Below, piece by piece: positions 1-26,042 of a DNA stretch of 64,000 nt. This DNA is from an uncultured Eubacteriales bacterium (GTDB taxonomy: Bacteria; Bacillota; Clostridia; Peptostreptococcales; Anaerovoracaceae), in assembly GCA_902775345.1 (NCBI GenBank), contig CACYLW010000013.1:1-64000 (forward strand). Direction: 5' to 3'. Position 1 is the first letter of the stretch; every line of letters starts with the position of its first letter. The notes under the pieces were generated by a model. That model worked only from the letters and a program-made list of their open reading frames with translations, was not told the DNA's origin and did no database searches. Position numbers and translations under genes: made by a program.

Positions 1-29
1 ATAATTGCTTTGAGAAAGGGGGCACATTA

Positions 30-428
30 ATGAAGAAATTAATTATCGGTGTGATGCTTACCATTGCAGTGTTATGTCTTGCAGCTTGTGGGGGCTCGTC
101 TGTAAAGGTGGGCTCGTTCTCATCTCGCTACTTTAACGGGGATGATTATGATAACGCTGTACAGGAAGTCTTTACTTATTTCAGCGACTGGGAAGGCTGC
201 ACTATGACAGAAATCGGATATGCCGGAGATGACGCTGTCAAGGCAGAAGCGGAAATCCGTGGGTTGGCGCCCGAGCAGGTTATGGTACTGACATCCACCT
301 TTACTACGGACGGGGAAGACCACCAGAACGGCCTCGAACCAAATTACACATATGAGGATTACAAGTGGATCCTGACAAGAAACACTACGGCGGAGCCATG
401 GAACCATGAAGATCATGGTTACGGCTAA
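30..428 (+). CDS. Small secreted lipoprotein, unknown function
   Basis: The 132-residue product begins with a lysine pair and a hydrophobic stretch ending in the lipobox LAAC (Cys at about residue 20), so it should be exported and lipid-anchored outside the membrane. The remainder is an acidic, aromatic-rich domain of about 110 residues that I do not recognise with certainty; its shape resembles small DUF4829-like lipoproteins. The ATG at 30 follows a GAAAGGGGG ribosome site. It stands alone, followed by the first copy of the 92-nt repeat. Function is not inferred. Confidence 0.75.
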   Translation: MKKLIIGVMLTIAVLCLAACGGSSVKVGSFSSRYFNGDDYDNAVQEVFTYFSDWEGCTMTEIGYAGDDAVKAEAEIRGLAPEQVMVLTSTFTTDGEDHQNGLEPNYTYEDYKWILTRNTTAEPWNHEDHGYG

Positions 429-448
429 ACCGGTTAAGAAGGTGCTAA

Positions 449-581
449 GTGGTTGGATGAAAAGAGATGGCGTGCTGTCCTCCTTTCATTTCAATGTGTT
501 CAGAAATAGCGTCTAAATTCGAGCCTCGTACGCTCCACCATCGAAAAACCCGAAGATTTCAACGTCTTCGGGCTTTTTCTT
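449..581 (+). repeat. 92-nt conserved element, copy 1, with terminator hairpin
   Basis: The core at 449-540 is nearly identical, without indels, to 2158-2249 and 9672-9763. It contains GTCCTCCTTTCATTTCAA, which resembles the 3' end of 16S rRNA (anti-Shine-Dalgarno), and ends in a tRNA-like TTCGAGCC...CTCCACCA. It is followed by a hairpin with stem CCCGAAGA (549-556) / TCTTCGGG (565-572) and CTTTTT. The hairpin stem differs between copies although the core does not. The most likely reading is a multicopy small RNA or a tRNA-derived repeat. No clear promoter is seen. Confidence 0.75.
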
Positions 582-662
582 GTCTCGAGTGATCCGAGCT
601 ATTATCCCAAAAAGGAGCACATTAGGAGCACAAATTCAAAAAAATTCTGTTTTTACTGTCGA

Positions 663-1058
663 TTAACTGTCGAAAGTGTCTCCCTGATCGAGTCGATCCT
701 GAACCATCCGGAGAGCTCGATCGTGTATTCTGAAAACTCCTGTCCACGAATAGTGGATCCCTTCACAGATCTCCTCCCAGTTCTCTCTATGCACATAGCG
801 ACGAGTCAGGACTTCTCCCTCGAGTCCCGGGATCTCTGTGATCAGGTCGAGGATCTTCTTCCTTGTGTCTGACACTTCGACGAGTCTCTTCTCCCAGACA
901 GTCAGCTTCTCTTCGATGTTAGCTCGATCTTTTTTCATCTTTGGAGTTGTCTGTGTGGTTATACGATCCAGAGAGTCGAGCTTGTTCCTCGTCCACAGGA
1001 TCTCCGACTTCAGTCTCTCTTCCTGTCGATCATAGTTGTCATATTGAAGTAATGGTAT
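663..1058 (-). pseudogene. Phage sigma-70-like HTH activator, start codon lost
   Basis: The minus-strand frame from 1058 down to 663 is open. An ATG at 938 exists, but family-like sequence continues upstream of it (coiled coil rich in Glu/Arg, then Ser-Leu-Asp-Arg-Ile) with no start codon before an in-frame stop at 1059-1061. The C-terminal third (TRRYVHRENWEEICEGIHYS, then IHDRAL) matches sigma-70 region-4-like proteins of Firmicute phages (DUF1492 / late-gene activator type). I read it as a 5'-truncated prophage remnant; a product starting at 938 is possible but lacks a ribosome site. A further short minus-strand frame at 1143-1196 may belong to the same remnant. Confidence 0.55.
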
Positions 1059-1255
1059 TTATCCTATGTGATATTTGTATGCCTAGAAGAGGGATTTTCT
1101 GTAGTAGGTTAGGCATGTGCGTAGAAAAACAACCTCTATAAGCTAGCCGTCATAGAGACGCAGGATCTCGTCGGCGAGCTTTTCTTGTGACCTCATAAGG
1201 CAAACTTTGTTTTAATTGATTTATAAAAAAATTATCGTAAAACATTAAAAAACTG
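1059..1255. other. Gene-poor stretch with short remnant frames
   Basis: Between the phage remnant and the next promoter only short frames are visible. One minus-strand piece (1143-1196) reads as the last 17 residues of a helical protein, and the segment from 1200 is AT-rich. No RNA gene or repeat is recognised. Confidence 0.4.
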
Positions 1256-1283
1256 TTGACATACATTAATTCATATGTATAAT
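1256..1283 (+). promoter_or_regulatory. Strong sigma-A promoter with internal dyad
   Basis: TTGACA at 1256-1261 and TATAAT at 1278-1283 are separated by 16 bp, upstream of the DUF2975/HTH pair. ATACAT (1261-1266) and ATGTAT (1275-1280) form an inverted repeat spanning the spacer, a plausible operator for the HTH protein encoded by the second gene. Operator assignment is inference. Confidence 0.75.
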
Positions 1284-1351
1284 GGGCATTGTAAGGATCC
1301 TAAATAACATATTTCACAGATCAAAACAACAAACACAGAAAGGACATTATC

Positions 1352-1852
1352 ATGAATAAAGATACCAAGTTAGCAAATCTTCAGAAAACAAGCAAAGTCT
1401 TCGCAGTGATCGCAAAGATCATTGAGCTCGTAAACTATGTAGGAGCTGCGATCTGCGCAGCTGCCATTCCGGTGCTCTTCATAAACCAGGACAAGCTGAA
1501 ATACTTCATAAGCGGACAGGAAGACGATCAGTTCTTCCAGATGCTTTCAGAGAACATGGAATTCAGGAGCGCTATGACAGTCTTTCTCGTGTTCCTGATC
1601 GTGCTCACACTCGCCAGCGCTTATCTTTTCAGAAAGATCGGTACGCTCTTCAGAAACATCAACGAAGACTATTCACCTTTCATTCCTGAGAATGTAAAAC
1701 TCATCAAGATCATAGCAGTATTCGTCGCAGTGTTCATGCTGCTTGAAACAAGTATAGTCCCTGCTGTTATGAGTGGATTGATGATCTGGGCTGTGGCTCT
1801 TCTCTTTGACTATGGCTGCGAGCTCCAGACCGAATCCGACGAGATACTATAA
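1352..1852 (+). CDS. DUF2975-type membrane protein
   Basis: The 166-residue protein has four hydrophobic segments, at about residues 15-42, 72-92, 118-135 and 137-152, with an extramembrane loop between the first two. Size, topology and the partner gene match the DUF2975 family, usually co-encoded with a small Cro/C1-type regulator. It starts at ATG 1352 after AGAAAGGA and lies 11 bp before the HTH gene, so the two are one transcript. The biochemical role of the family is not known to me. Confidence 0.75.
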   Translation: MNKDTKLANLQKTSKVFAVIAKIIELVNYVGAAICAAAIPVLFINQDKLKYFISGQEDDQFFQMLSENMEFRSAMTVFLVFLIVLTLASAYLFRKIGTLFRNINEDYSPFIPENVKLIKIIAVFVAVFMLLETSIVPAVMSGLMIWAVALLFDYGCELQTESDEIL

Positions 1853-1863
1853 AGGAGGGCACT

Positions 1864-2076
1864 ATGGCGATAATACTCAGACTCGACAGAATGATGGCTG
1901 ACCGCAAGATGTCCCTGAACGAGCTTGCAGAAAAAGTCGGCATCTCCAATGTCAATCTCTCAAAAATAAAGACCGGTAAGGTAAACGGGGTGAGGTTCTC
2001 CACACTGGATGGCATTTGCAAAGCGCTGGATTGCCAGCCTGGAGATATTCTGGAATACAGAAAAGACGAAGAATAA
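1864..2076 (+). CDS. YozG-family Cro/C1-type HTH regulator
   Basis: The 70-residue product is essentially one helix-turn-helix domain. The recognition region is MSLNELAEKVGISNVNLSKI and the C-terminus (TLDGICKALDCQPGDILEY) is characteristic of the YozG group, which accompanies DUF2975 membrane proteins. AAAGGAGG sits just before the ATG. It probably autoregulates the pair through the dyad in the 1256-1283 promoter; this is inferred from position and family habit. Confidence 0.88.
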   Translation: MAIILRLDRMMADRKMSLNELAEKVGISNVNLSKIKTGKVNGVRFSTLDGICKALDCQPGDILEYRKDEE

Positions 2077-2157
2077 TCGGAATTTAAGCTATACTACGAG
2101 CAGAAAAAGCCGTACAGTATAACATAACACAACCAGTACGAGCGAGTGATTGGATGA

Positions 2158-2285
2158 GTGGTTGGATGGAAAAAGATGGCGTGCTGTCCTCCTTTCATTT
2201 CAACGTGTTCAGGATTAGCGTCTAAATTTGAGCCTCGTACGCTCCACCAAGAAAACCGTTGAGATTTCAGCGGTTTTATTTTTTT
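2158..2285 (+). repeat. 92-nt conserved element, copy 2, with terminator hairpin
   Basis: The core at 2158-2249 matches copies 1 and 3. Its terminator has an 11-bp stem 2252-2262 / 2267-2277 (AAAACCGTTGA with TCAGCGGTTTT, one G-U pair), loop GATT, and a T-rich tail. Short GGTTGGATGA-like motifs occur just before (2146-2157) and after (2288-2315) the element, as if its 5' leader were tandemly repeated. Confidence 0.75.
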
Positions 2286-2420
2286 GGGTGGTTGGACCTG
2301 ATTGGATGAACTTGGATAAATCCTCCTTGGACTGGTTATAGAGCAAAACATCTTGGCAGCATTTTATTCCTCGCTTACAGCGAATACATGTTGTCAGATC
2401 GTTTCATATAAAAATATATG
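2286..2420. other. Intergenic stretch with degenerate TTGGA motifs
   Basis: After copy 2 there are several TTGGAT/TTGGAC motifs, then AT-rich sequence leading into the tetR promoter. No gene is seen; the minus-strand frame here is tRNA-like repeat read backwards. Confidence 0.4.
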
Positions 2421-2449
2421 TTGACTAACGACCGAACGGTAGGTAAAAT
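2421..2449 (+). promoter_or_regulatory. tetR promoter with operator between -35 and -10
   Basis: TTGACT (2421-2426) and TAAAAT (2444-2449) are 17 bp apart. The spacer contains the dyad ACCGAACGGT (2431-2440). The 19-mer 2426-2444 recurs at 3191-3209 upstream of the next gene with only four differences, which marks it as the TetR operator and implies autorepression. Confidence 0.75.
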
Positions 2450-2495
2450 AGAGACGTCAATTATAGAAAATACGGTTGCTGCTGGAAGGAGTACT

Positions 2496-3113
2496 ATGGA
2501 AAAGGCCAATACAAGAGACGAAATACTGAAAGTTGCGCTCGATCTGTTTTCAGTAAACGGGTATGAAGCGACGAGCATTTCACAGATCGCGGATGCTGTC
2601 GGAATACGCAAAGCGTCTCTTTACAGCCACTTCAGCAGCAAACAGGAGATACTCGATAATGTTGTAGCAGCAGTACTGACTGGTTATGATAATCATTCAG
2701 TATTTGCCAATACAAACTGGGATGATCCTGAGTTCACCAAGGATAAGCAGAAAATGACTGCAGAAGATGCTGCCGGCATGATACAGAGTCAGGTCAGACG
2801 TATACTCCATGATCCTGCAATCAGCAAGGGCAGAAAGATGCTCATGATCGAGCAGTTCCGAAACAAAGAACTCGCCGAACTGCAGACCAGAGTGAATTAC
2901 GAAGATATCATGAAATATTTTGAAGGGATGCTCAGATTCCGTGTCCGCATGAATTCGCTGAAGGATTCAGATACTGAGATCATGGCAGCGCAGCTTTCAT
3001 CGCCAATCACTGTATGGATCAACCTATGCGACAGGGAACCTGCCAGAGAGGAAGAAGTAATGGAACTAGTTCACAATCACGTGCTGCAGTTCTTCGAGGT
3101 ATACGCAAAGTAG
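2496..3113 (+). CDS. TetR/AcrR family repressor
   Basis: The 205-residue product has a TetR N-terminal DNA-binding domain at residues 8-55, ending with the typical [14 protein letters not shown], and an all-helical ligand domain whose inducer cannot be predicted. An in-frame ATG at 2418 overlaps the promoter, so the start is the ATG at 2496 preceded by GGAAGGAG. Matching operators upstream of this gene and at 3191 suggest it represses itself and the hydrolase/CPBP operon that follows. Confidence 0.9.
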
Positions 3114-3190
3114 AACGATACAAGCAATCAATTGTATAGAATATAAATACCGGCCGGCCATTGCGGCTGACCGGTAAAAAAATACACTCC

Positions 3191-3209
3191 TAACTACCGA
3201 ACGATAGGA
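3191..3209 (+). promoter_or_regulatory. Probable TetR operator upstream of the Ntn hydrolase operon
   Basis: The sequence carries ACCGAACGAT inside a 19-mer that repeats the tetR promoter operator (2426-2444). It lies 22 bp before the ATG at 3231. No strong -35/-10 pair is obvious around it. Joint regulation is an inference from the repeated motif. Confidence 0.6.
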
Positions 3210-3230
3210 AGTGAAAGGAAGGAGTCAATA

Positions 3231-3917
3231 ATGTGTACAAGCATTGTAGTAAATAAGAATAAGACGATCGTAGGATGGAATCTGGATCTTCTGGATATGG
3301 AGTACAGAGTAAGGCCTGCAGATGAAGGAGTATACATAGAGGTCAATGACGCGAAGGAAGGGTGGATGCCGCTGTTTGGCGCGAGCTCCCGTGGAGATTT
3401 TGTCGGAATGCCTACATGCTGGCCTGCTGACAGAAGAAGTGATCCTTCAGGAGACGGAGAGAACGTCATAATGCTTGACATCGATCTTTTACTGCAGAAG
3501 AAGACGCTGCAGGAGATCCGGGATATAGCGGCCGAAAGGCCAGTTTACAGTATACCTGGGCTGACCTTTATGTCTGCTCTGTCAGATGCTGAAGGCAACG
3601 TGCTTCATATCGTGCCGGGGCAGGGTTCCAGCTATTATGAAAAACCTGAATACAAGATATTAACTAACTTCTCACCATACAAGCAGAACTCGGAGACACA
3701 TCCGTGGATGGGCTGGGACAGATATCACATAGCAAAAGACATGCTGAAAAAATCGTCAGATGATTTTGATGTGGATGATTGCTTTGATGTACTCAAAGAG
3801 GTCTCTCAGGAAGTCTGCCCGACAGTTGTATCCATGGTATACGACGTGACAGACAGGACTGTTTACTGGTGTGAGAACAGAGACTGGGATAAGAGAGAAC
3901 TGTGGAGGTGGAAATAG
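3231..3917 (+). CDS. Choloylglycine hydrolase-like Ntn amidohydrolase
   Basis: The 228-residue protein begins MCTSIVV, with Cys2 placed to become the N-terminal nucleophile after Met removal, as in linear amide C-N hydrolases (penicillin V acylase / bile salt hydrolase superfamily). GWNLDL and the later LTNFSPY segment fit the fold. It is shorter than bile salt hydrolases (about 320 residues), so the substrate may be another amide such as an N-acyl amino acid. AAGGAAGGAG precedes the start. First gene of a four-gene set under the presumed TetR operator. Confidence 0.75.
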   Translation: MCTSIVVNKNKTIVGWNLDLLDMEYRVRPADEGVYIEVNDAKEGWMPLFGASSRGDFVGMPTCWPADRRSDPSGDGENVIMLDIDLLLQKKTLQEIRDIAAERPVYSIPGLTFMSALSDAEGNVLHIVPGQGSSYYEKPEYKILTNFSPYKQNSETHPWMGWDRYHIAKDMLKKSSDDFDVDDCFDVLKEVSQEVCPTVVSMVYDVTDRTVYWCENRDWDKRELWRWK

Positions 3918-3919
3918 TC

Positions 3920-4165
3920 ATGAAGACGAACATAGAAAAATACATTATTGGAAACCGCAAATTGATGAGAATGCTGACCGTTACGGCAACACTGTTCTTT
4001 GCCGGTGCGGTGTTCAAGCTCACAGCAGACAAGTGGCCGGAGGGAGTAATATACTTCGTGACGGCAGCTTGCTTCGCATCGCTTGAAAGAGCATGTGTCA
4101 GGAGAGCAGGCGAGGCAAGAAACAATAATGAGACAACTTATCACGAGGAAGATGACAATGAGTAA
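3920..4165 (+). CDS. Small two-helix membrane protein
   Basis: The product is 81 residues if started at ATG 3920, which has GGAGG at 3904-3908; a GTG at 3902 would add six residues. Two hydrophobic stretches (about residues 19-37 and 43-57) are followed by a charged tail. No family is recognised. It starts just after the hydrolase stop and overlaps the CPBP gene, so the three are translationally linked. Confidence 0.6.
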   Translation: MKTNIEKYIIGNRKLMRMLTVTATLFFAGAVFKLTADKWPEGVIYFVTAACFASLERACVRRAGEARNNNETTYHEEDDNE

Positions 4166-5012
4166 TACTGATGCTACCAGATATGACAATATAGCGCTGA
4201 TCACATTCTTCACTTTAGTGATAATACTGTCGCTGGCGGCAGAGGCATTTATAGTAAAGGACGGCCCACTCTGGATGTATTTTGTGCTGATGTGGATCCC
4301 GGCATTTTCAGCGATCATTTCAAGCGCGGTTTCGCTTAAAGGAGATAAGGAGAAGTTTTCTCTGAAGAGCTTTCTTTCCGGGCTTGGGATAAGAAAATGC
4401 AGGATTCGTTACATATTGCTCGCAACCCTCATTCCTTTGGCCTATCTGTTGATCCCATATATGTTCTACTGGAAAACACACCCTGATAATTTCGGCTATA
4501 CAGGTGTAGCTATTCAGTTAGTATTAAAAGATTGTCTTCCGATGATGGTCATTGGAATTTTCCCCAACATAATTTCCGCAATGGGTGAGGAGATAGGCTG
4601 GCGGGGGTACATGCTTCCTGCTCTCACGGAAAGAAGCGGTCTGAAGAAAGCACTGATTATAACGAGCCTGTTCTGGGCATGCTGGCATTTGCCGCTGCTC
4701 GCTTTCGGAGACTACATGGTGGGGGCACCTGTGTGGTATAAACTGCCTGCATTTGCACTTTGCATATTACCGGTCGGGATTATCATTGGCGGGCTGACAT
4801 ATTTGAGCAAGAGCGTCTGGCCTGCTGCATTTCTACATGCGGCACATAACAATTATGATCAGGCAGTGTTCGGCGTAATAACAAGAGGCGATGACATGAT
4901 GTATTACGTCAGCGAGACCGGGTTTCTCACAATAATATGCGCATGGGTGATCGCACTAATAATGATTGTCAAAATCAAGAATACTGCAGCAAAAGAGGAG
5001 AAACAGATATGA
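4158..5012 (+). CDS. CPBP family intramembrane metalloprotease
   Basis: The 284-residue polytopic protein has the CPBP (Abi/CAAX) signature: EEIGWRGYMLPAL with the Glu pair, later FWACWHLP with its His, and HAAHNNYDQ near the end. It is expected to act within the membrane as a glutamate-type protease; in Firmicutes such proteins serve prenyl-protein processing or bacteriocin self-immunity. The start at ATG 4158 follows CGAGGAAG and overlaps the upstream stop; an in-frame ATG at 4152 is the alternative. The substrate is unknown. Confidence 0.85.
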   Translation: MSNTDATRYDNIALITFFTLVIILSLAAEAFIVKDGPLWMYFVLMWIPAFSAIISSAVSLKGDKEKFSLKSFLSGLGIRKCRIRYILLATLIPLAYLLIPYMFYWKTHPDNFGYTGVAIQLVLKDCLPMMVIGIFPNIISAMGEEIGWRGYMLPALTERSGLKKALIITSLFWACWHLPLLAFGDYMVGAPVWYKLPAFALCILPVGIIIGGLTYLSKSVWPAAFLHAAHNNYDQAVFGVITRGDDMMYYVSETGFLTIICAWVIALIMIVKIKNTAAKEEKQI

Positions 5013-5272
5013 GCAGTTTTTACGAGTTTGCCGGCGCTGCATTACCATGGGTCACGTTAGGTATCTTAATGGCTGTGTTTTGTGCAAGAGCGGCAAGCAG
5101 AAAAAAGACGCAGAAAAAGAAAGACGACTATAGTTCTGAAGGAATGTCCATTGGGATGTGCTTCGGAGTTGCAATCGCAACAGCACTGCATATCAATGTT
5201 GGCATCGGAATGACGCTGGGTCTGTTACTGGGACTTGTGATAGGTTCTTCAAAAGAGAAGGAGGATGACTAG
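5009..5272 (+). CDS. Small membrane protein with glycine-zipper helix
   Basis: The 87-residue product has one N-terminal helix (about 5-26), a very basic linker (SRKKTQKKK), and a second region with GxxxG-like spacing, such as in GIGMTLGLLLGL. AGAGGAG precedes ATG 5009, which overlaps the CPBP stop (ATGA). It closes the TetR-controlled group. A small helix-packing protein next to a CPBP protease could be its partner or target; that is speculation. Confidence 0.6.
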   Translation: MSSFYEFAGAALPWVTLGILMAVFCARAASRKKTQKKKDDYSSEGMSIGMCFGVAIATALHINVGIGMTLGLLLGLVIGSSKEKEDD

Positions 5273-5274
5273 AG

Positions 5275-5611
5275 ATGACTCTGACAGATAATATGATCCA
5301 AATACGAAGGTTGTCTGATCCTGAAATCCCTGCAGCACTGGATCTGGCCTGGAGGGTGTTTTCCGAATACGAATCTCCTGATTATTCAACAGAGGGGACT
5401 GAGGAGTTCCGTAAGTGCCTGCGTGATAAGGAATATCTGTACTAAGATGTTCGATCACCTTCTGGAGAATTATAAAGGCAATTTCATAACGGTCAATTCT
5501 TCGCCGTACGGCCTGGGCTTCTATAAAAAACTGGGATTTGTTCCGACTGAAGAAGAAAAGACCATAAACGGTATTAGATTCACACCGATGATATATAGGA
5601 GGAATACCAGA
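5275..5611 (+). pseudogene. GNAT acetyltransferase with internal deletion
   Basis: The first 56 codons (5275-5445) read as a GNAT N-terminus (MIQIRRLSDPEIPAALDLAW) and then hit a stop. A different frame supplies the C-terminal part from about 5449: KMFDHLLENYK, then the acetyl-CoA domain end GLGFYKKLGFVPTEEEKTI. Intact relatives have about 60-70 residues between these blocks, including the CoA-binding loop, so the centre is missing and the frame is shifted. It begins 2 bp after the upstream operon. Confidence 0.75.
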
Positions 5612-5816
5612 ATGAAGGATTACATAGCATACTGTGGACTGGACTGCGAGATATGGGATTAAAACACCGTTCTGCTATTCACTTTGCCAGATAAGGCAGT
5701 GTGCGCTTAGCAAAGACATTGAAACCTGCGGAGGCTGCAGCGAAATGAGCACCTGTGAAAAGCTGAAAATGGTAACAGGAAACAACGAGGAAGCTCTCAT
5801 GAGGCTAAAAGGATAA
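5612..5816 (+). pseudogene. DUF3795 cysteine-rich protein with internal deletion
   Basis: AGGAGG at 5597-5602 precedes ATG 5612, which encodes MKDYIAYCGLDCE, the standard DUF3795 start; the frame stops at 5662. The C-terminal half (TPFCYSLCQIRQCALSKDIE, TCGGCSEMSTCEKL, GNNEEAL) continues in another frame to 5816. The missing middle is about 35-40 residues in intact relatives as I recall them. The preserved cysteines suggest a metal site in the intact ancestor. Same style of damage as its neighbours. Confidence 0.72.
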
Positions 5817-5818
5817 GC

Positions 5819-6143
5819 ATGGAAAGAAAACTAATCAATTGGATAGGATTATTGGGTATCATATCGCTGATATCTTATGCGCTGGCAGTGATCATATCGC
5901 CGATGGCTTATCCAGGGTATAACTGGATGGAGCAGGCTGTCAGCGATTTGTCTGCTGATAATGCATCGTCAAAAGCATTGTGGAATCAGCTGTCGTCCAG
6001 GCATATCCCCTCTGCAATACTTCGGAATAGTTGAAAGATGCAGTGTATTCGCTGCAACAGGCTTCAATGCTGTACTTGGCTGGTGCCTGTTCAGAGGCTT
6101 TGGATCACCGGATAAATACAAAAATAAAGGAGTTAAGAAATGA
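5819..6143 (+). pseudogene. DUF998 membrane protein with internal deletion
   Basis: The N-terminal part from ATG 5819 reads as a DUF998-type start (first membrane helix, then AYPGYNWMEQAVSDLSADNA and LWNQLSS). Translation then leaves the family and stops at 6034. A second frame contains FGIVERCSVFAATGFNAVLG, the last helix of DUF998 proteins, and ends at 6143. Most of the central helices, roughly 100 residues, are missing. The stop at 6141-6143 overlaps the next start (ATGA). Confidence 0.7.
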
Positions 6144-6655
6144 ACATCATTTATGAGAAGAAAGTTGCCATGACCTTTATTGGTTTTCACACAGAGATTT
6201 GTCCGGAGGAGGGCTATCAGAAATGCCCTGAATTCTGGGATAGGGAATACGCTGCAAAGTATGCCCGGCTCTGGCAGACAATGAAGCCGGAAAATCCGGT
6301 TGAGGCAGCGATCCTTTCGAATGGAATCGGCATGTTCGCCATCTGCTCAGAGTCCGGGAACGGATTCGAATACTGGATCGCGGGGCTGTATCAGGGTGGA
6401 AAAGTGCCGGAAGGACTGGAGCTTTACACTTTTCCGGCAAGCGACTGGGCATTGTTCACAACTAAAGGGCCTATTCCAGACTCTATACAGGCACTGAACA
6501 CCTATGTCTGGCAGGAATGGTTTCCTTCTGAAGGAATTAAACGTCGCGCAAACGGCAAAGCAACGATCGAAGTGTACTCCGCAGGCGATCCACAGTCACC
6601 GGATTACGAGAGCGGCATCTGGGTCCCGCTGCAAGAAGCAAAAATGTCGTTATAA
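6140..6655 (+). CDS. GyrI-like effector-binding domain protein
   Basis: The 171-residue single-domain protein resembles the C-terminal ligand-binding (SOUL/GyrI) domain of AraC and MerR regulators, without an attached HTH. Blocks FWDREYAAKYARLWQ, GIGMFAICSE, FEYWIAGLYQGGKVPEGLEL and WVPLQEA fit. It probably binds a small hydrophobic or cationic ligand. AAAGGAG precedes the ATG. Unlike the genes on either side it appears full length. Regulatory partner unknown. Confidence 0.75.
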   Translation: MNIIYEKKVAMTFIGFHTEICPEEGYQKCPEFWDREYAAKYARLWQTMKPENPVEAAILSNGIGMFAICSESGNGFEYWIAGLYQGGKVPEGLELYTFPASDWALFTTKGPIPDSIQALNTYVWQEWFPSEGIKRRANGKATIEVYSAGDPQSPDYESGIWVPLQEAKMSL

Positions 6656-6656
6656 C

Positions 6657-7145
6657 ATGGCAAATATCATCACAGTTATCAGGATCATCTGCTCCATTGT
6701 ATTACTATTCTGTCAATTCCCCTCCACAGCCTTTTATATTCTGTATGTAACCGCGGGGATCACAGATACAATTGACGGAGCGGTTGCGCGAAAAACAAAT
6801 ACAGTCAGCGAGTTCGGTGCAAAGCTGGATACCGCTGCCGATTTTGTGCTTGTTGTTGTATGCATGAAAACGCTGATTCCTATACTCGATATTCCTAAAT
6901 GGCTATACGTTTGGATCGCCGTTATAGCTTTGGTCAAAGTGATCAATGTCGTGTCCGGATATGTGATGAGGAAAGAATTTATCACAGCACATACCGTTAT
7001 GAACAAGGTCACGGGTATTCTTTTGTTCATTCTGCCGCTGACCCTGCGAACACTTGACTTAAAATACACTGGGGCTGCTGTCTGCACAGTGGCTGCATTT
7101 GCCGCAGCACAGGAAGGACATTACATCAGGACGGGGAAAGTTTAA
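6657..7145 (+). CDS. CDP-alcohol phosphatidyltransferase family protein
   Basis: The 162-residue membrane protein carries the CDP-alcohol motif D-x2-D-G-x2-A-R-x8-G-x3-D-x3-D, seen as DTIDGAVARKTNTVSEFGAK followed by LDTAAD, at about residues 34-59. Four or more hydrophobic segments follow. Such enzymes move a phosphatidyl group from a CDP-diacylglycerol onto an alcohol headgroup in the cytoplasmic membrane. It starts at ATG 6657, just after the upstream stop. It is somewhat short (usual 170-200) but the active site looks intact. It is a second-type paralogue rather than an obvious pgsA. Confidence 0.8.
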   Translation: MANIITVIRIICSIVLLFCQFPSTAFYILYVTAGITDTIDGAVARKTNTVSEFGAKLDTAADFVLVVVCMKTLIPILDIPKWLYVWIAVIALVKVINVVSGYVMRKEFITAHTVMNKVTGILLFILPLTLRTLDLKYTGAAVCTVAAFAAAQEGHYIRTGKV

Positions 7146-7153
7146 GAGATGAC

Positions 7154-7700
7154 ATGAGTACAGCCGAAATTGAGACCAGATTAACAGAGCTATATGAAAA
7201 GGAAGCAGAGAAGCTCTTGACAGCTATTTTGCAAAGCGTCAGGCTGAGCTGAAAGAAATAGCGGATACGGCGCACTATCAGATGCGGCTTCTGGATACAG
7301 CCAGAAACAGGCTGAGAAAGGAGCAGAACATGAGTTACGATGTTTCAATCAAAACGATACCTGAACGTTATGCTGCAACAGTACATATGACTATACCGCG
7401 TTACGAGGATGAAGGCATGGTGTGGCAGATCCTCAATGAAGAGACAGGCCCGCTGAATGTGATTCCTGCGGAGCCATGCCTCGTAGCAGCAGAATATCTG
7501 GACGATGAGTATAGGGAAGAGGATGTGGAACTGATCGCATGGAAGACGGTCAGGGGAAAGTATACGGCGCAGTGATTGCATGGGTCAATGAGAACGGTTA
7601 TGAATGCGCCGGCCCTATGTTCAATATCTATCATGTCAGTCCACACGAGACGCAGAATCCTGACGAATTCGTTACGGAAGTGTGCTACGCAGTAAGATAA
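7154..7700 (+). pseudogene. MerR/GyrI-type regulator remnant with internal deletions
   Basis: No MerR HTH is present. A frame from 7154 gives a helical fragment; another gives AKRQAELKEIADTAHYQMRL, the linker typical of BltR-like MerR regulators. It runs into an effector domain (NMSYDVSIKTIPERYAATVH, EDEGMVWQIL) and stops at 7575. The final block (WVNENGYECAGPMFNIYHVS, FVTEVCYAVR) continues in a third frame to 7700. The HTH and about 40 residues of the effector domain are therefore missing. A partial product from 7282 or 7330 could still be made, but is unlikely to fold. Confidence 0.7.
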
Positions 7701-7767
7701 CACAATATCAGGAGGGGACTGGTGCTTCCGGATCAAACATCAGTCTCCTCTTTGGGAGGAAAATGAC

Positions 7768-8226
7768 ATGAACCATAAAGCCCTTGTTGTCATCGATATA
7801 CAGAATGATATCACCAAGCACTACAGGGACATCATTGACAGACTGAATACTGCCATCGAATGGGCGGTGGAAAGCGGCATGGAAATTGTGTATATTCAAC
7901 ATAATAACCTGTCCGCCGGTACGCGCACATTCAAGCCCGGCACAAAAGGAGCAGAACTTGCGCCGGAGCTCAGGATCGTCTCGGATCATATCTTCGTTAA
8001 GACAAAGGCCAACGCTTTGACCAGCGAGGCGTTTTCAGAATTCATCCGGTCAAAGGATATCAGAGAGTTTTACATTACCGGTGCTGATGCCACTGCCTGT
8101 GTGAAATCCACCTGTTTCAACATGACTGACCAGCTATGACTTAAAGAAGATGCTGGAAATGCTTGTCTACTACACGGACAAGGGCTGTGAAGTCAAAAAT
8201 CTTGCCATTTATATGGGGGTGAAATA
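7768..8226 (+). pseudogene. Isochorismatase-type cysteine hydrolase with short internal deletion
   Basis: From ATG 7768 the sequence is a cysteine hydrolase (ALVVIDIQNDITKHY with the catalytic Asp, Lys in VKTKANAL, Cys in GADATACVKSTCFNM). At FNMT the frame breaks and stops at 8139. The remaining C-terminus (TSYDLKKMLEMLVYYTDKGC) lies in another frame ending at 8226. About a dozen residues (usually KAGY...VISD) are missing. The stop overlaps the next start (TAATG). All catalytic residues precede the break, but the lost strand probably destroys the fold. Confidence 0.72.
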
Positions 8227-8829
8227 ATGCGTATCTATGTTGATTTTGACGATTGCCTGTGCGAGACAGCAAGGGCCTTCTCAAAGCTTGCGCTGGAAAT
8301 GTTCAATAAGCATGTTCCTTATGACCAGATTCATTATTTTGAACTGGACAGGTCTTTTGATCTGGATGAGGAACAATACGAGCGGTTTATGCTTCGGGGT
8401 CACGAGCCGGAAATACTGTTGTCGTTTGATGCAACGCCGGGAGCTGCGGAGACCATAAACGAATGGATTTCCTGCGGGCACGAGGTATCGATCATTACCG
8501 GCCGCCCATCAAGCGTTTATGAGCCATCCCGTATATGGCTGGATGAGCATGGACTTAAGAACACCAGACTGTACTGTCTCAATAAGTATGGAAGGGATCA
8601 CTTTATCAAAAACAGTAACAGCACTCTTGAACTTGAAGACTATTACAGGATGAAGTTTGATTATGCAGTTGAGGATTCTCCAAAGGCGTTCAGGTTTTTT
8701 GAACATCTGCCGGAACTAAAGGTTCTGGTGTTTGACAGACCATGGAACAGAGAATGTGCTTTTCCGAATGGAAATTATCAAAGATGCGCCGATTGGGAGA
8801 TCATTCGCAAGATCGTTACAGGCGAGTGA
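8227..8829 (+). CDS. HAD-superfamily 5'-nucleotidase-like phosphatase
   Basis: The 200-residue product begins MRIYVDFDDCLCET, with HAD motif I (DxD), has a motif II-like Thr in SIITGRP, and a late acidic motif in DYAVEDSP. Length and order match the YqfW/NT5C-like putative nucleotidases that hydrolyse nucleoside monophosphates or related phosphate esters. It appears intact, in contrast to the genes before it, and starts directly on the upstream stop codon. Substrate not predictable. Confidence 0.8.
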   Translation: MRIYVDFDDCLCETARAFSKLALEMFNKHVPYDQIHYFELDRSFDLDEEQYERFMLRGHEPEILLSFDATPGAAETINEWISCGHEVSIITGRPSSVYEPSRIWLDEHGLKNTRLYCLNKYGRDHFIKNSNSTLELEDYYRMKFDYAVEDSPKAFRFFEHLPELKVLVFDRPWNRECAFPNGNYQRCADWEIIRKIVTGE

Positions 8830-8874
8830 GAAAGAGACGTGCAATAAGAAATCTCATTTGCAGAGGTGATTTCA

Positions 8875-9630
8875 GTGAACAATATCTTTTATGAAATGAT
8901 ATTTAGGAGGAAGTCATTTCATACTTTCAGAAATGTTGGGAACGAATCAATCAGCGAAAACGAACTTAATGATATGCAAAATGCATATTCGGAGCTTGCT
9001 CCTCTGAATCCTGAAATCAAAACCGCCATTCGTATTGTTCCCGAAAAAGAAACTAATTGTAAAAGAGGCGGAGAATACTGCATTCTGTTTTATAGCGAAA
9101 AGAAAGACGGCTATTTACAAAACATAGGTTATATCGGTGAACAACTCGATCTTTATCTGGTATCCAGAAATATCGGAACGCTCTGGTTCGGAATAGGCAA
9201 AACAAAAGAGGAACACTTTGAGAATATGGAATTCGTCATTATGTTTTCCATCCGAAAGATCAGTGATAGCTCTAAGTACCGCAAGGATATGTTTAAGAGC
9301 AAAAGAAAGAGCGTTGAGGAAATATGGGAAGGAAAACAAATCCTGTGTGTGAGTGATATTGTCAGGTTTGCACCGAGTGCCTGTAATTCTCAGCCGTGGC
9401 ATGTAAAGAACGACGGTGAGCTTTCGGTTTACAGATACAAGAAGCCCGGTAAAAGAGGAATAATGCCTGCAGAAAAGGTTTCATTCTACAATTGCATTGA
9501 TATAGGTATTTTTATTTGCTTTCTGGATATTTGCCTTGGGCATAGCGGTATTGATTTTAACAAAAAACTATATCCGGATCCCGGCGAAGATAAAGAATAT
9601 GTTCTGAATGTAAAATATAGACTTGATTGA
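8875..9630 (+). CDS. Nitroreductase-family flavoprotein (TM1586-like)
   Basis: The protein is about 251 residues. An N-terminal block FRRKSFHTFRNVG and a central APSACNSQPWHVK are the FMN-binding signatures of nitroreductases, arranged as in the putative TM nitroreductase group in which one chain forms both halves. It would reduce small electrophiles with NAD(P)H. The start is uncertain: GTG 8875 has AGAGGTG in front; GTG 8866 adds three residues. It is the last gene before copy 3 of the 92-nt element. Confidence 0.72.
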   Translation: MNNIFYEMIFRRKSFHTFRNVGNESISENELNDMQNAYSELAPLNPEIKTAIRIVPEKETNCKRGGEYCILFYSEKKDGYLQNIGYIGEQLDLYLVSRNIGTLWFGIGKTKEEHFENMEFVIMFSIRKISDSSKYRKDMFKSKRKSVEEIWEGKQILCVSDIVRFAPSACNSQPWHVKNDGELSVYRYKKPGKRGIMPAEKVSFYNCIDIGIFICFLDICLGHSGIDFNKKLYPDPGEDKEYVLNVKYRLD

Positions 9631-9671
9631 TAAATACGAAGTTTGTTGATGAACAGCAGGTGGTTGGATGA

Positions 9672-9802
9672 GCGGTTGGATGGAAAAAGATGGCGTGCTG
9701 TCCTCCTTTCATTTCAACGTGTTCAGAAATAACGTCTAAATTCGAGCCTCGTACGCTCCACCATTAAAGCCGTTGGAATTCCAACGGCTTTTCATTATTT
9801 TG
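9672..9802 (+). repeat. 92-nt conserved element, copy 3, with terminator hairpin
   Basis: The core at 9672-9763 is nearly identical to copies 1 and 2. Its terminator is a perfect 11-bp stem 9766-9776 / 9781-9791 (AAAGCCGTTGG / CCAACGGCTTT), loop AATT, with a T-rich tail. An extra GGTTGGATGA unit precedes it at 9662-9671. Stem bases differ from copy 1 entirely and from copy 2 in part, while pairing is kept. Confidence 0.75.
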
Positions 9803-9933
9803 GCGCTTGTATCCATGCCATCAGTCAGAAGAGTTTTACATATGGTATAATCTTTTCAGTGTCAGGCATTAAGGCTCGTATGGCTGGAGCAATGATAATA
9901 AGAAATGGTAAGCCCGACGGAGGATCGTAAAAA
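9803..9933 (+). promoter_or_regulatory. Extended -10 promoter and leader
   Basis: TGGTATAAT (9843-9851) is an extended -10 with no good -35. It leads into an 80-nt leader with a CGGAGGATCG site before the ATG at 9934. Nothing else is recognised in this gap. Confidence 0.5.
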
Positions 9934-10491
9934 ATGAAAAACCTGCAATGGTGCATTTACACATACCGGCATAGAAAAGCGTTTGAATACTGCGCCCGCA
10001 AACTCATCAGGGATCCGGGATTGCGTGACGTAATGCTGCGCAGGGCAAGGGTGCATGACATGGACAAGATGATAATGTACCTGTTCCTTGACCAGAAGGA
10101 GGCGCAGGAGATACACGTGAAAACCCAGCCTCATCATCTTGAGAATCAATTGCCGAGAACCTATGAGGACTTCGTGGAGACCGTAATCGACTATGAATGC
10201 GCGCCATATACAAAGCCTGACAAGCCGCTTAATGCCTACGATTTTACAAGGGTGCTCGTAGACTGGAAGGCGCTCGATGAAGAAACGGGAGACAAGCTGA
10301 TCGGCATCATGGAAGAGCTGGGCATAGCGAATTCGGACTCATACGCGGAGGATGCTGAGGGGCAGGCATATATAAACGGGATAGGCGAAGTCACCGAAGA
10401 GATGATATACGAAGAGATACTTAGGTATGTCAATGAGAACCCGGATAATGAGTTGAACGAAATACTGGAGTATGTGAATAATAATAAATGA
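9934..10491 (+). CDS. DUF5662-like protein
   Basis: The 185-residue soluble protein is rich in Tyr, His and acidic residues. VHDMDKM near residue 41 and the HHLEN that follows resemble the HDxxK...HH..Y pattern of the DUF5662 protein at 24728, so it is probably a distant paralogue, possibly a metal-dependent HD-type enzyme. The C-terminal third is very acidic. It is monocistronic between its own promoter and a strong terminator. Enzyme activity is unproven. Confidence 0.55.
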   Translation: MKNLQWCIYTYRHRKAFEYCARKLIRDPGLRDVMLRRARVHDMDKMIMYLFLDQKEAQEIHVKTQPHHLENQLPRTYEDFVETVIDYECAPYTKPDKPLNAYDFTRVLVDWKALDEETGDKLIGIMEELGIANSDSYAEDAEGQAYINGIGEVTEEMIYEEILRYVNENPDNELNEILEYVNNNK

Positions 10492-11291: not shown

Positions 11292-14150
11292 ATGAGCAAA
11301 AGCAACGATAAACCAAATATGGTAAAAGAAACAAATACCCGGGATATAACAGGGAAAGCTCTGTTAGCGTGCTTTATTGCAGCCGTGCTGATTATCTGTG
11401 TACAGGCAGCCGGTACTTATATGAATCTTCAGTCGTTCCTGAGACGCGAGACTTCTTATCCCAGCCTCGAAGCCGGGATAAAAGGATCGATCGAGGAACT
11501 GTCGGCTTCGATAGACAGCCATTACGAAATGGATAAAAAGAAGGCGCTGACTGATACATATTTCCGGGCTCTTGCCCTCAGGGATAAGATGAACCGCAGC
11601 GACTTCCTGGACAGCACTGTTGAAGACTACGGAAAATCCTATGTTGTAAGAGTCAGGGACGGAAAACTGACAGTTCCTGACGAAGCTCAAAACCTTCCGG
11701 GAATAACAGCAGATGACATTAAAGGCGAGCAGGGAATAATAGATACATCGAGAGATACTGACTGGCGATGCTTTACTGCATACAGCGCTATAGGCAATGG
11801 CTATTATGCAATGCAGGAAGTAAACGCGAGTGATGGCGCTGATAATATGGCATCAATTGCGCTCTACGAGATCGAGACTGCGTTTGACGGAAAGGCCATT
11901 CTTCTGGACGAAAACGGGAGATTCGTTTATTACAGTTTTGATCTGAAAATCCCTGAACTGCGTAATGAAAACGGACTGGATGAGGAAGCTCTTGATAAGT
12001 TCCTTAAAAAACACGCACCTTATTACGTCATGGCAAGGTCTGCAGATGAGAGGTATACACTTATACTTCTCCTTTCAAAATATGAGATACTGATTGACTC
12101 ACTGAGCATAGACCTTCTGGTTGCACTGGTGGCGCTGATTCTTTCAGTGGTACTGATCGTCTGGATATCGGAGATAAAGAGGCTGCTTAAAAGCGGAAAG
12201 GCAGATAAGAAAAAGCTTGGTGATTATGAACCTTTGCATATAAAAAACAAGATAAGGACATTCTGCATACTCGCTGTCGTGATCGTCTTCCTTGCCGGGT
12301 TGTTCTCGAGCGCCGTAGGGTCATTGTACAGTGTCACCTGGGACGCGCAGAACACCCTCTCAGCTGTTCAGAGTATGGACGAAGATCTCAGGAGCGTTAC
12401 TGAATTCAGAATCAGTGAAATGAAAGAAAATGATGCTGAGCATGCAAAAATAATCGCTGATGCCCTCTACCGCAACCCCGACCTTCGCACAAAGAAACAG
12501 CTTGGAGTTTATAAAGATATGCTTTCAGCTAACTACATCATGCTGTATGATTCGGAAGGCAGAGAGTTCCTGACGGATTCTCCGTATATCAACATGAACA
12601 TAGGCGGCCTGAGTTCTTCAGACATGCGTGCTTTCAGACGGGTGCTGAACGGCGGATCGGAAGCTTATCTTGAAAATGTAACGGATAATGTGACAGGGGC
12701 AAAGAGCAATCTTGTAGGTGTGCGCATGCCTGACATCACCGGAGACAATGGCAGCGGCTACAACCTGCTTGTGATTTCTTATCCTCCGTCATCTGAAAAG
12801 GGAGTTACATTCCTCGCGACCCCGGATGATATGGCGTCATCACTGGTTTCTTCATACAATGGATACTTGCTCCTTGATAAGGACAAAAAAATCAGGTTTC
12901 TCTCCAATAAGTCTTTATATGGAAGGGATCCGCTGGAACTGGGCATGAAAGAAGACGAGATCCGGGACAATTTCCTTGGAGAGTTTTATCTGGATAACGA
13001 CCATTATTATGGAGCTTCCAATGAGATGAACGGCGAACTGTTCTATTACATCACTAAAGCCTCGGTCATGAGGGAAGGAATGTTCACTTTCGGATTGCTG
13101 GAGGCTGTGGGGTTCCTGCTGGTATTGCTGATAATACTCCGTATCCTGATGAAGGATTATGATCTGATCTATGATAAAAGTACTGCAGGGGAATACGATG
13201 ATCAGGATCCTGAAAGCAGCAGGGAATGGGCATCACGGTTCCCGTGGATAAAAAGAGCCAGCTCTCCTGAAGCAAGGGCAAGGGTCGCGCTCAACATAAT
13301 GGCGGGACTGTGTATCTTCGTTATCGGGGTACTGGCCATCACTTCTGCAGGTGCAGACAAAAGGGACAGCCTCATTCCGTACATTTTCAGCGATAGCTGG
13401 AACAGAGGGCTTAACCTGTTTGCCATTGCTAGAGTTGCTTTCATGATATGCGGAGTAGCAGTCATATGGAGCATCGTTGCATTCATTGTCGGCATTGCAG
13501 TTGCTTTTCTTGATACAAGGGGGGCATCAGTTGTCAGACTCATAAAAAGCGTTCTGAGCTATGCCGTTGTTCTGATCGTATTGTATTATTCGGCATTGTA
13601 TCTTGGCTTTGATCCGGCAACACTTCTGGCTTCAGTCGGAATCATAGGACTGGCGATCTCGCTTGGCGTAAAAGATATAGTCGCGGATGTCTTCTCCGGC
13701 GTATCGCTGATCTTCGAAAAAGCGTTCCAGGTAGGAGACATAGTGGAGATCGACGGCCTTGTCAGAGGAACGGTACAGGAGCTGGGTGTAAGAACATTAA
13801 AACTCTTTGGTGACGATAATAATCTTAAGGTCATCAGATACAGTGATATTCACAAGGTCAATAATCTCTCGAGAAGCAACTCGTGGTGTATTGCGGAATT
13901 TACCGTTAAGAACAATGTAAATACTGAAGAACTGAAAAAGATGCTCTGGGCGGAACTTCCTGAAATACGGGAAAGACATAAAGAGATACTCAGCGATCCG
14001 GTATTTACCGGTATAAGCACCATAAACATAGGAAGCATCACATTCGGTGTGAGGGCAGAATGTAAGGAAACAAAAATGCGCAAGGTCCGCAGCATACTGA
14101 ACTACGAGATCAGGGACATGCTCAACCGGAACGGTATAGAGATGCTTTAG
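11292..14150 (+). CDS. MscS-family channel with two extracellular sensor segments
   Basis: The 952-residue protein has a C-terminal MscS core: pore helix and beta domain at about residues 775-870 (GLAISLGVKDIVADVFSGVS, VGDIVEIDGLVRGTVQELGV) and the alpha-beta end domain after it. Ahead of it are seven further hydrophobic segments, near residues 23-43, 272-292, 320-343, 598-619, 663-687, 710-740 and 750-772. The first two and the third and fourth bracket soluble extracellular regions of about 230 and 255 residues, rich in Asp/Tyr like Cache-type sensors. It probably releases osmolytes under tension; ligand gating is inference. Confidence 0.85.
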   Translation: MSKSNDKPNMVKETNTRDITGKALLACFIAAVLIICVQAAGTYMNLQSFLRRETSYPSLEAGIKGSIEELSASIDSHYEMDKKKALTDTYFRALALRDKMNRSDFLDSTVEDYGKSYVVRVRDGKLTVPDEAQNLPGITADDIKGEQGIIDTSRDTDWRCFTAYSAIGNGYYAMQEVNASDGADNMASIALYEIETAFDGKAILLDENGRFVYYSFDLKIPELRNENGLDEEALDKFLKKHAPYYVMARSADERYTLILLLSKYEILIDSLSIDLLVALVALILSVVLIVWISEIKRLLKSGKADKKKLGDYEPLHIKNKIRTFCILAVVIVFLAGLFSSAVGSLYSVTWDAQNTLSAVQSMDEDLRSVTEFRISEMKENDAEHAKIIADALYRNPDLRTKKQLGVYKDMLSANYIMLYDSEGREFLTDSPYINMNIGGLSSSDMRAFRRVLNGGSEAYLENVTDNVTGAKSNLVGVRMPDITGDNGSGYNLLVISYPPSSEKGVTFLATPDDMASSLVSSYNGYLLLDKDKKIRFLSNKSLYGRDPLELGMKEDEIRDNFLGEFYLDNDHYYGASNEMNGELFYYITKASVMREGMFTFGLLEAVGFLLVLLIILRILMKDYDLIYDKSTAGEYDDQDPESSREWASRFPWIKRASSPEARARVALNIMAGLCIFVIGVLAITSAGADKRDSLIPYIFSDSWNRGLNLFAIARVAFMICGVAVIWSIVAFIVGIAVAFLDTRGASVVRLIKSVLSYAVVLIVLYYSALYLGFDPATLLASVGIIGLAISLGVKDIVADVFSGVSLIFEKAFQVGDIVEIDGLVRGTVQELGVRTLKLFGDDNNLKVIRYSDIHKVNNLSRSNSWCIAEFTVKNNVNTEELKKMLWAELPEIRERHKEILSDPVFTGISTINIGSITFGVRAECKETKMRKVRSILNYEIRDMLNRNGIEML

Positions 14151-18506: not shown

Positions 18507-19718
18507 ATGACTAACAAAAAGTATTTACCAAGCGTAATAGTTCTTTATCTGAACTATTTCCTTCACGGAATTGGCTGCTCCGTTCTCGGACAGGCCGTAA
18601 TCAAAGACGCCCTTGCCGGAAGCTGGAACGTTGAGGCAATGGCTATCACAGCTATCGCAGCTGCACTCGGACTCGGAAGACTCATCGCTCTTCCTTTCGC
18701 GGGTCCTCTTTCGGACAAGCTCGGCCGCAGAGTGTCGACAGCTATCGGCGGATTCTCATACGCTGTATATCTGATCGGACTCGCCATGGCTTTCAACGCA
18801 GGCGGCGGTGCAGGATACAGGATCGCTTATGTTTGCGCTATCGTCGGCGGTATTGCCAACTCGTTCCTCGACACAGGCATTTATCCTGCTGTTGCTGAGA
18901 TCATCAACAAGGCTCCTGGCGTTGCGACAATGGGCATCAAGTTTGCCATCTCCGGTTCTCAGTTCCTGCTGCCTTTCTTCCTCGGAATCACAGTAGGCCA
19001 GACAGCAGGCGGAATGGTTACTTACAACAAGCTGTTCTACATCGTTGGAATCGCATATCTCGTACTGATGGCACTCATCCTCTTCTTCCCTCTGCCTGAT
19101 ACAGACAAGAAGGCTGAAGAGAAAAAGGAAGGACTTCTTCAGAGCATCAAGCATGCGAACTTCTCCGCAGGTTCCATCGCCATGATCCTCATCGGATTCA
19201 CATGCACAGGTACATTCCAGCTCTGGCTCAACTGCGCGCAGAACTTCGCGAAGGATGTTGTAGGCTGGGCTGAGCCGCAGGCCATGCAGTCATTCTACGC
19301 TATCGGAACAATGATAGGACTCGTTGTCACAGCTCTGCTGACAAGCAAGATCAAGGACGTAAGATTCGTAATGATCTATCCTGCAGTATGCGCACTCATG
19401 ATGGTTGCAGTACTTATGGCTCCTTCACAGGGAATACTCAAGATCGGCGCTTTCGTACTCGGGTGGTTCGGAGCAGGCGGACTTCTGCAGATCGCAACAT
19501 CCGTATGCAACATGCTCTTCCCTAAGATCAAGGGAACAGTCACCGCCCTCGTAATGATCGCTTCGTCTCTGTGCAACTACACACTCCTTACAGCTGCTGC
19601 ATCGATGACTCCGTCCGGAGTAATGATCATGAACATCGTGCTGACAGCAGTCGGAACTCTGCTCGGAGTATTCGTAAACATGAATTACAACAAGATGCTC
19701 GAGGCTGCAGAAAAATAG
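18507..19718 (+). CDS. MFS transporter, probably for shikimate or quinate
   Basis: The 403-residue protein has about twelve hydrophobic segments and the MFS motif A between helices 2 and 3 (GPLSDKLGRRVS). It starts at ATG 18507 behind AGAGGAAAC, 52 bp after the dehydrogenase and 34 bp before aroD, so it is cotranscribed. Substrate assignment rests on context only: a hydroaromatic acid, symported with protons, is the simplest guess. Confidence 0.82.
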   Translation: MTNKKYLPSVIVLYLNYFLHGIGCSVLGQAVIKDALAGSWNVEAMAITAIAAALGLGRLIALPFAGPLSDKLGRRVSTAIGGFSYAVYLIGLAMAFNAGGGAGYRIAYVCAIVGGIANSFLDTGIYPAVAEIINKAPGVATMGIKFAISGSQFLLPFFLGITVGQTAGGMVTYNKLFYIVGIAYLVLMALILFFPLPDTDKKAEEKKEGLLQSIKHANFSAGSIAMILIGFTCTGTFQLWLNCAQNFAKDVVGWAEPQAMQSFYAIGTMIGLVVTALLTSKIKDVRFVMIYPAVCALMMVAVLMAPSQGILKIGAFVLGWFGAGGLLQIATSVCNMLFPKIKGTVTALVMIASSLCNYTLLTAAASMTPSGVMIMNIVLTAVGTLLGVFVNMNYNKMLEAAEK

Positions 19719-25932: not shown

Positions 25933-26042
25933 CATTTTTCAAAATTTTTTCACATTGTGATTTTGCTGTGAAGAGAGGGTATAAAAGAGGCATTTGTGAT
26001 ATTATATATCCGTATAATTATGTAATTTGCGGAGGTTTGGTC

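Follow-up and report, generated by a model that had tools for sequence, protein, structure and literature searches.

Cis-mobilizable elements (CIMEs) are devoid of integration and transfer genes, keep their left and right attachment sites (attL and attR) and occur in tandem with other elements at one site, according to the accessible part of the published account (PMC5704250). The ssrA islands of Dehalococcoides, as far as the available text describes them, lie in tandem downstream of one RNA gene, are bounded by its 3' end and inserted in the T-loop, and 15 of 31 have no integration module (PMC3146451). Additive flexible genomic islands are described, in the available sections of three papers, as cassettes at transfer RNA (tRNA) genes bounded by partial-tRNA repeats, with a size range of 330 bp to 42 kb in Methylophilaceae (PMC10872708, PMC7771536, PMC5217437). 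The present analysis concerns the first 64,000 nucleotides (nt) of contig CACYLW010000013.1 from an uncultured Eubacteriales bacterium (the window), in which three nearly identical elements, here e1 to e3, had been read in an earlier note as a multicopy small RNA (sRNA) or a mobile tRNA-derived repeat. With a probability of about 0.88, these elements are attachment (att) sites of the attR/attP type that belong to small integrated cassettes targeting the 3' end of tRNA-Ala.

The cores of the elements (449-540, 2158-2249 and 9672-9763) are 92 nt long each and differ at six positions (first versus second copy) or five (both other pairs), so the three near-identical copies of the earlier note are confirmed. 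A profile built for these sites covers 103 nt in the second and third copies, because the repeats upstream of the core are part of the element; the core of e3 is the last recognisable one in the window. When up to three mismatches were allowed, CTCGTACGCTCCACCA was found three times in the 64 kb, each time exactly (mean of 0.44 in shuffles, with three occurrences reached in 1 of 100). The last 23 nt of the elements, TTCGAGCCTCGTACGCTCCACCA, correspond to the 3' end of tRNA-Ala(GGC), exactly in e1 and e3 and with one mismatch in e2. The CCA end noted earlier is thus that of the genome's own tRNA, and the note's reservation that the element might be found only as part of a known tRNA applies to these 23 nt.

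In the window's own assembly (G000; 90.5% complete, 26 contigs), 29 nt of the 3' part of the element recur at C3:326224, where ARAGORN predicts tRNA-Ala(GGC) behind tRNA-Leu(CAG). Contig C3 ends 678 nt past this tRNA-Ala gene and shares its terminal 99 bp, without a mismatch, with the start of the window. This overlap places tRNA-Ala(GGC) at the head of the row, on the same strand and about 1 kb upstream; the distance between its CCA and that of e1 is 1119 bp. The join is supported by a relative, L072, in which cassette 1 is continuous (96% identity over the whole length). The arrangement is the one by which tRNA islands are recognised, with an intact tRNA gene at one end and a displaced tRNA fragment in the same orientation at the other. 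On the fetched loci holding both, att sites lie downstream of tRNA-Ala and on its strand. The copies do not, as first thought, occupy unrelated intergenic gaps: all three have the same orientation and lie behind the tRNA gene whose 3'-terminal part they repeat. Since identity with the tRNA begins at the T-loop, the crossover is probably located there. A tyrosine-recombinase site has the layout P arm, core and P' arm. Judged from the sequence, each element is a P arm joined at the T-loop to a copy of the tRNA-Ala(GGC) 3' end, and the sites bound three tandem cassettes of 1.1, 1.7 and 7.5 kb (Table 1).

Table 1. Sites, cassettes and terminators of the row (positions refer to the window).
Feature	Position	Strand	Description
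Cassette 1, 3' part	1..540	+	Total length 1119 bp, of which the first 579 bp lie on contig C3 after tRNA-Ala(GGC); lipoprotein-like open reading frame (ORF) 30-428
att site e1	444..540	+	P arm 444-517 (single arm repeat), tRNA-Ala(GGC) 3'-end core 518-540, exact; right end of cassette 1; att profile E 9.4e-30
Cassette 2	541..2249	+	1709 bp: terminator 549-572, minus-strand ORF 663-938, DUF2975-like 1352-1852 (below Pfam cut-off), HTH_26 gene 1864-2076, att e2
Terminator, left end of cassette 2	549..572	+	Read as replacement terminator for the upstream tRNA end
att site e2	2147..2249	+	Direct repeats 2146-2168, core 2227-2249 with one mismatch; right end of cassette 2
Cassette 3	2250..9763	+	7514 bp: terminator 2252-2277, P'-arm repeats 2289-2307 (left part, 3' of e2), Rce1-like protease 4083-5012, NT5C-like 8227-8829, nitroreductase-like 8866-9630, att e3
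Terminator, left end of cassette 3	2252..2277	+	Stem finder
att site e3	9661..9763	+	Direct repeats 9660-9682, core 9741-9763; right end of cassette 3
Terminator after last core	9766..9791	+	Stem finder

The arms were compared in an alignment (A2) of 30 sites that we selected from the loci collected by then. In 28 of the 30 sites, TGRTTRGAT is present twice 5' of the core, neither repeat with more than one mismatch (0.12% of shuffles). These repeats are followed by a conserved spacer, GATGGCGTGC..CCTCCTYTC.TTTCAA, which is also characterised by CCTCCTTTCATTTCAACG, and then by a variable piece up to the T-loop; CCTCC is invariant across all 30. The P' arm shows at least two TGRTTRGAT within 140 nt past the CCA in 17 of 25 tRNA-Ala genes and at 6 of 15 att sites (0.4% of shuffles). 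In the subtype with a TGT spacer, the piece left of the T-loop reads AGCGT/AACGT before GGC cores and AGCTTG/AACATG before CGC cores, and the idea that it is independent of the tRNA type was dropped on this ground. The notion of a decayed whole tRNA (a GGCGT/ACGCT stem at about tRNA length) was likewise discarded, because several tRNA-Lys sites with one core carry other sequences on the left. Searched against viral_contigs, the P-arm pattern gave 0 matches. Two further observations concern P' sides. That of cassette 2, where TGRTTRGAT is absent, holds another direct repeat, AGGAGCACATTAGGAGCACA, at 613-632, which might serve another integrase as its arm type. Behind the P' arms of three loci (L048 after 4092, L047 after 9626 on the minus strand, L121 after 19038) lies CCTCGTACGCACGAC or CCCCTACGCACGAC, each similar to a section of a tRNA-Ala core.

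An individual terminator behind each copy had been described, and this holds: the three listed in Table 1 have the highest numbers of stem pairs (9-11) among 11 terminator-like sites at window positions 1-10000 (6.9 expected). Integration parts the tRNA from its terminator, so each cassette is expected to supply one on its P' side. By our own lenient stem finder, applied to 64 places, a terminator is present 3' of tRNA-Ala in 23 of 25 cases, at 12 of 14 internal att sites and at 20 of 25 last-seen sites. In one relative (G014), the terminator behind tRNA-Ala(GGC) has the same sequence as the one after e1 in the window.

This relative also carries cassette 2 end to end (99.8% over 1709 bp) directly behind tRNA-Ala(GGC), and cassette 1 is absent. 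In L072 (isolate RGIG5865) the order is cassette 2, cassette 1 and then pieces resembling cassette 3, and in G016 cassette 1 is followed by a cassette-3-like stretch. Just past the row, the window holds a gene for a large MscS-like channel (11292-14150), which is present in 6 of the 47 genus genomes; in four of the other five it shares its contig with att sites of this type. No array-free site with this gene as right flank was found among the six, and the exact absence of cassette 1 in G014 served as the reference in its place.

Twenty-six cassettes, namely those with both ends on the fetched loci rather than all in the genus, could be delimited. Eighteen show no trace of the integrase family described below, here called IntA (808-7514 bp, median 2318), four contain a full-length integrase (9758-13105 bp) and four a fragment. 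Two pairs are duplicates (G000_c2 and G014; G000_c1 and G050_1), G047_C15b is bounded by a 46-nt tRNA fragment and G050_2 by a partial att site. A cassette counted as free of a trace when tblastn with nine integrases gave nothing at E<=1e-5; the search for PF00589 itself covered only 15 genomes. The 18 integrase-less cassettes contain 54 ORFs of 85 or more amino acids, chosen by a simple longest-ORF rule rather than a gene finder, and 47 of them run with the tRNA. Pfam matches in cassettes include a RelB/YafQ pair, a sigma factor with a zf-HC2 partner, an alpha-amylase and an EamA transporter. The RelB/YafQ toxin-antitoxin pair makes up, together with an att site, a cassette of 808 bp (L044:6151-6958), and it recurs in cassettes of G045 and G056 at 97-99% protein identity. 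As for the window, cassette 1 encodes a TfoX_N protein, two of seven cassette ORFs in one Pfam run were without match, and no relaxase was seen among the eight of 18 ORFs (at least 60 amino acids) of its three cassettes that were compared with Pfam. PF00589 had no match in window positions 1-9763.

Elsewhere in the genus, PF00589 matches adjoin tRNA-Ala in several of the 15 genomes. Eight tRNA-Ala-side integrases of 424-452 amino acids are 56-100% identical to each other, and a ninth, on contig C12 of the window's own assembly, shares 30-32%; an alignment of nine proteins shows no variation in the motifs LR..E, R-T and GH and in a C-terminal Y. A relative at E<=1e-60 is present in 27 of the 47 genus genomes, and at E<=1e-80 the integrase was found in one of 57 genera (119 genomes surveyed). 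Sixteen full-length members, one with an internal stop, occur in 14 genomes at 55-100% identity to the integrase P0001. Thirteen of them lie 86-179 nt 3' of a complete tRNA-Ala and convergent with it; the other three follow a 46-nt displaced tRNA fragment, follow a core not checked for a tRNA, or lie at a contig end. Four units running from tRNA through integrase to att site are complete (9.8-13.1 kb). Relaxases, candidates picked by eye, are encoded in all three units tested (MobA_MobL in L045, Mob_Pre in L121 and L123; G003 was outside this test), so these units look like integrative mobilizable elements (IMEs). The subtype of the P arm tracks that of the integrase in the four full units and one unit with a truncated integrase, with a GA/AA spacer in G017, G047, G056 and G052 and a TGT spacer in G003. 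The window sites carry the TGT spacer, and G058 encodes next to tRNA-Ala(GGC) an integrase that shares 88% identity with the TGT-type enzyme; an integrase of this type is therefore a candidate for acting on them.

Two side observations concern recombinases and their targets. The tRNA-Ala(CGC) row of L121 contains, at 18993-19038, 46 nt of tRNA-Ala(GGC), a displaced 3' part that begins near the anticodon and is followed by an integrase; it may reflect another crossover point or a chimera. The window itself encodes, at 37863-38741, an XerD-like recombinase scoring below the curated cut-off (275 of 329.6 bits). It reads QILRDSF and MGFED where HxLRHS and GH are the usual motifs, and its catalytic site is possibly degenerate.

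From this anatomy, a mechanism can be proposed. An integrase of the family found beside tRNA-Ala in relatives would recombine a circular cassette with the tRNA end, the exchange taking place in the T-loop. The P' end of the cassette would restore the acceptor strand of the tRNA and its terminator, the old tRNA end would be displaced to the far side of the cassette, and repeated integration would build a row. The cassettes of the window, having no integrase, may owe their movement in trans to mobilizable elements that carry one, or they may be relics; an integron-like movement in trans is plausible and unproven.

Several findings fit this proposal poorly. No IntA-family gene at E<=1e-60 was found in the window's own assembly (90.5% complete), whose best relative is about 31% identical and lies at tRNA-Ser(GGA). 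The P arm of e1 has one TGRTTRGAT repeat instead of two (one of two such sites among 30), the P' side reaches two repeats at only 6 of the 15 att sites, and it shows none for cassette 2 and one for cassette 1; with so few arm repeats, the P arm of e1 and the P' sides of cassettes 1 and 2 may be defective. On contig G045:C19, about 68 kb separates a GGC-type core from an att site on its 5' side; this site was left out of that row because its own core is of the CGC type. Folding is a further point: with the terminator included, the elements fold better than shuffles (z -1.74, -2.07 and -2.69), for which the terminator can account. The missing integrase and the P' arms without repeats also speak for rows that are relics, once-mobile islands decayed in place, whose orders changed by homologous recombination between the repeats of about 100 nt and not by an integrase. 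That 4 of the 26 cassettes contain nothing but fragments of an integrase points the same way, and accretion of decayed CIMEs is described in the available part of a published account (PMC5704250). Either process would leave the same trace of a cassette lost from between two cores. Small cassettes with P arms nevertheless recur elsewhere at high identity, cassette 2 at 99.8% over its 1709 bp and RelB/YafQ at 97-99% protein identity in three genomes, and the likeness of P arms over 30 sites suggests that they are in use. Decay in place is considered unlikely, without being far-fetched.

The remaining explanations are much less credible. The first suggestion of the earlier note was a transcribed, multicopy sRNA, perhaps acting on ribosome binding sites. 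For an sRNA that ends at the terminator and pairs with these sites via CCTCCTTTC, the terminator behind each copy and the invariance of CCTCC would be suitable. tRNA-Ala itself, however, has a terminator next to it in 23 of 25 cases, and the P arm varies with the integrase subtype. CCTCCTTTC is located in the part of the element that differs from tRNA-Ala, and no result obtained here ties it to ribosomes. Taken alone, the 92-nt cores show no folding advantage over shuffles (z +0.82, +0.56 and +0.43), and RNAalifold over the 30 sites found a two-sided change in none of 13 consensus pairs, which speaks against a structured RNA. Within the elements, Rfam gave no match and ARAGORN no tRNA, and the promoter scan listed no sigma-70-like site on the plus strand within 200 nt upstream of them. 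The sRNA is accordingly unsupported and very improbable. A self-moving tRNA-derived repeat entering intergenic gaps, comparable to a short interspersed nuclear element (SINE) or a miniature inverted-repeat transposable element (MITE), would explain the multicopy state and the tRNA-like 3' end, and the second suggestion of the earlier note, tRNA-derived and mobile, comes close to a displaced tRNA-Ala 3' end joined to an integrase arm. Against it, the sites lie in order downstream of tRNA-Ala on its strand, the unit that is present or absent is the DNA between the copies and not the copy, and the arrangement in G014 argues against it; the element marks mobile cassettes and does not move by itself, and this possibility is as improbable as the sRNA. 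A true integron, with attC cassettes and an IntI integrase, could be suspected from the row of small cassettes and the largely common orientation of their ORFs. Judged by core and integrase, and without a search for attC sites, its probability is lower still: arm repeats flank a core made of a tRNA 3' end, and two IntA members (P0001 and the L046 integrase) have no match at E<=0.01 to the dedicated integron-integrase models TIGR02249 and NF011946. With the broad XerA/integron-integrase model NF040815, both match far below the cut-off (45-50 of 220 bits).

Returning to the att-site interpretation, the model of the site finds 43 strong sites (at least 56 bits) in 22 of the 47 genus genomes, and matches at E<=1e-3 in 29. 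Among 32 named matching stretches, two bear the label Lachnospiraceae and the others Mogibacterium sp. or uncultured Clostridiales; by title, 18 of the 32 stem from samples of goat, sheep, horse or red deer, and the other 14 are RUG isolates (rumen genomes). Some of the weak matches belong to a parallel system at tRNA-Lys(CTT). Its core, as tRNA gene or displaced, is present in 8 of 10 genomes searched, with four in a row on contig C17 of the window's own assembly (one being the tRNA) and seven on G012:C66. On C17 (L130, L170), tRNA-Lys(CTT) at 26014-26089 and displaced 3' ends at 17175, 10881 and 2512 all lie on the minus strand, and the att sites are of at least two arm types. Related integrases are also found beside tRNA-Thr(CGT), tRNA-Ser(CGA) and tRNA-Ser(GGA). 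The likeness of the Ala and Lys spacers is weak, as judged by a block-only profile on fetched, redundant loci: the best non-Ala matches are Lys sites at E 0.0033, the first unrelated match has E 1.1, and many Lys sites fall at E 0.07-8. A wider proposal can tentatively be made, although the odds are somewhat against it: a genus-wide and still active, integron-like tyrosine-recombinase system with rows at tRNA-Ala(CGC), tRNA-Ala(GGC) and tRNA-Lys(CTT), a related integrase also at the Thr and Ser genes named, a spacer motif common to the Ala and some Lys sites, and minimal cassettes (down to 808 bp, with one or two genes) that would depend on the integrases of mobilizable elements for movement in trans.

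What appeared to be an RNA becomes a boundary marker by which the accessory genes of Mogibacterium-like gut bacteria can be divided into exact cassettes. Cassettes anchored at a tRNA would provide a gut bacterium with accessory genes in an exchangeable row, and the row is a clean test case for the movement in trans of integrase-less cassettes at tRNA genes. Integron cassette arrays likewise have a single anchor, mostly one orientation, exchangeable units of one to few genes and an integrase located elsewhere. They have no tRNA core; here, IntI is not matched and the terminator is brought by each cassette.

Established definitions capture the window cassettes in part. Islander, in the available description, requires an integrase inside the island and a length above 2 kb (PMC4383910); the window cassettes have no PF00589 match and two of the three are shorter than 2 kb, so rows of this kind would escape such filters. 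A tycheposon is an element of 4-200 kb at a tRNA with an XerD-like recombinase, as described in the accessible part of PMC10872708, whereas the window cassettes include units of 1.1 and 1.7 kb and none has a recombinase. The combination of integrase and relaxase that defines an IME is found in the integrase-bearing relatives (L045, L121, L123). By title and abstract, nothing among the matches listed for the Mogibacterium, integrase, mobile element and rumen literature describes the system, and the open-access accounts of related islands, in their available parts, do not describe this att anatomy or parallel rows at several tRNAs in one genus. Like CIMEs, the window cassettes have no integration gene by the PF00589 search and are flanked on both sides by an att site or tRNA core. 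They differ in that units here go down to 808 bp and 18 of the 26 delimited ones have no integrase trace; transfer in cis or in trans is putative in this system. The Dehalococcoides islands are alike in their tandem units behind an RNA gene, their 3'-end boundaries and the insertion in the T-loop, as far as the available text goes, with ssrA and a serine recombinase in the place of tRNA-Ala and a tyrosine recombinase (PF00589). Additive flexible islands occur in other bacterial groups, and neither an arm-type att anatomy nor a dedicated integrase family is described for them in the accessible sections. With these differences, the system is the same in kind as CIMEs, ssrA islands and additive islands.

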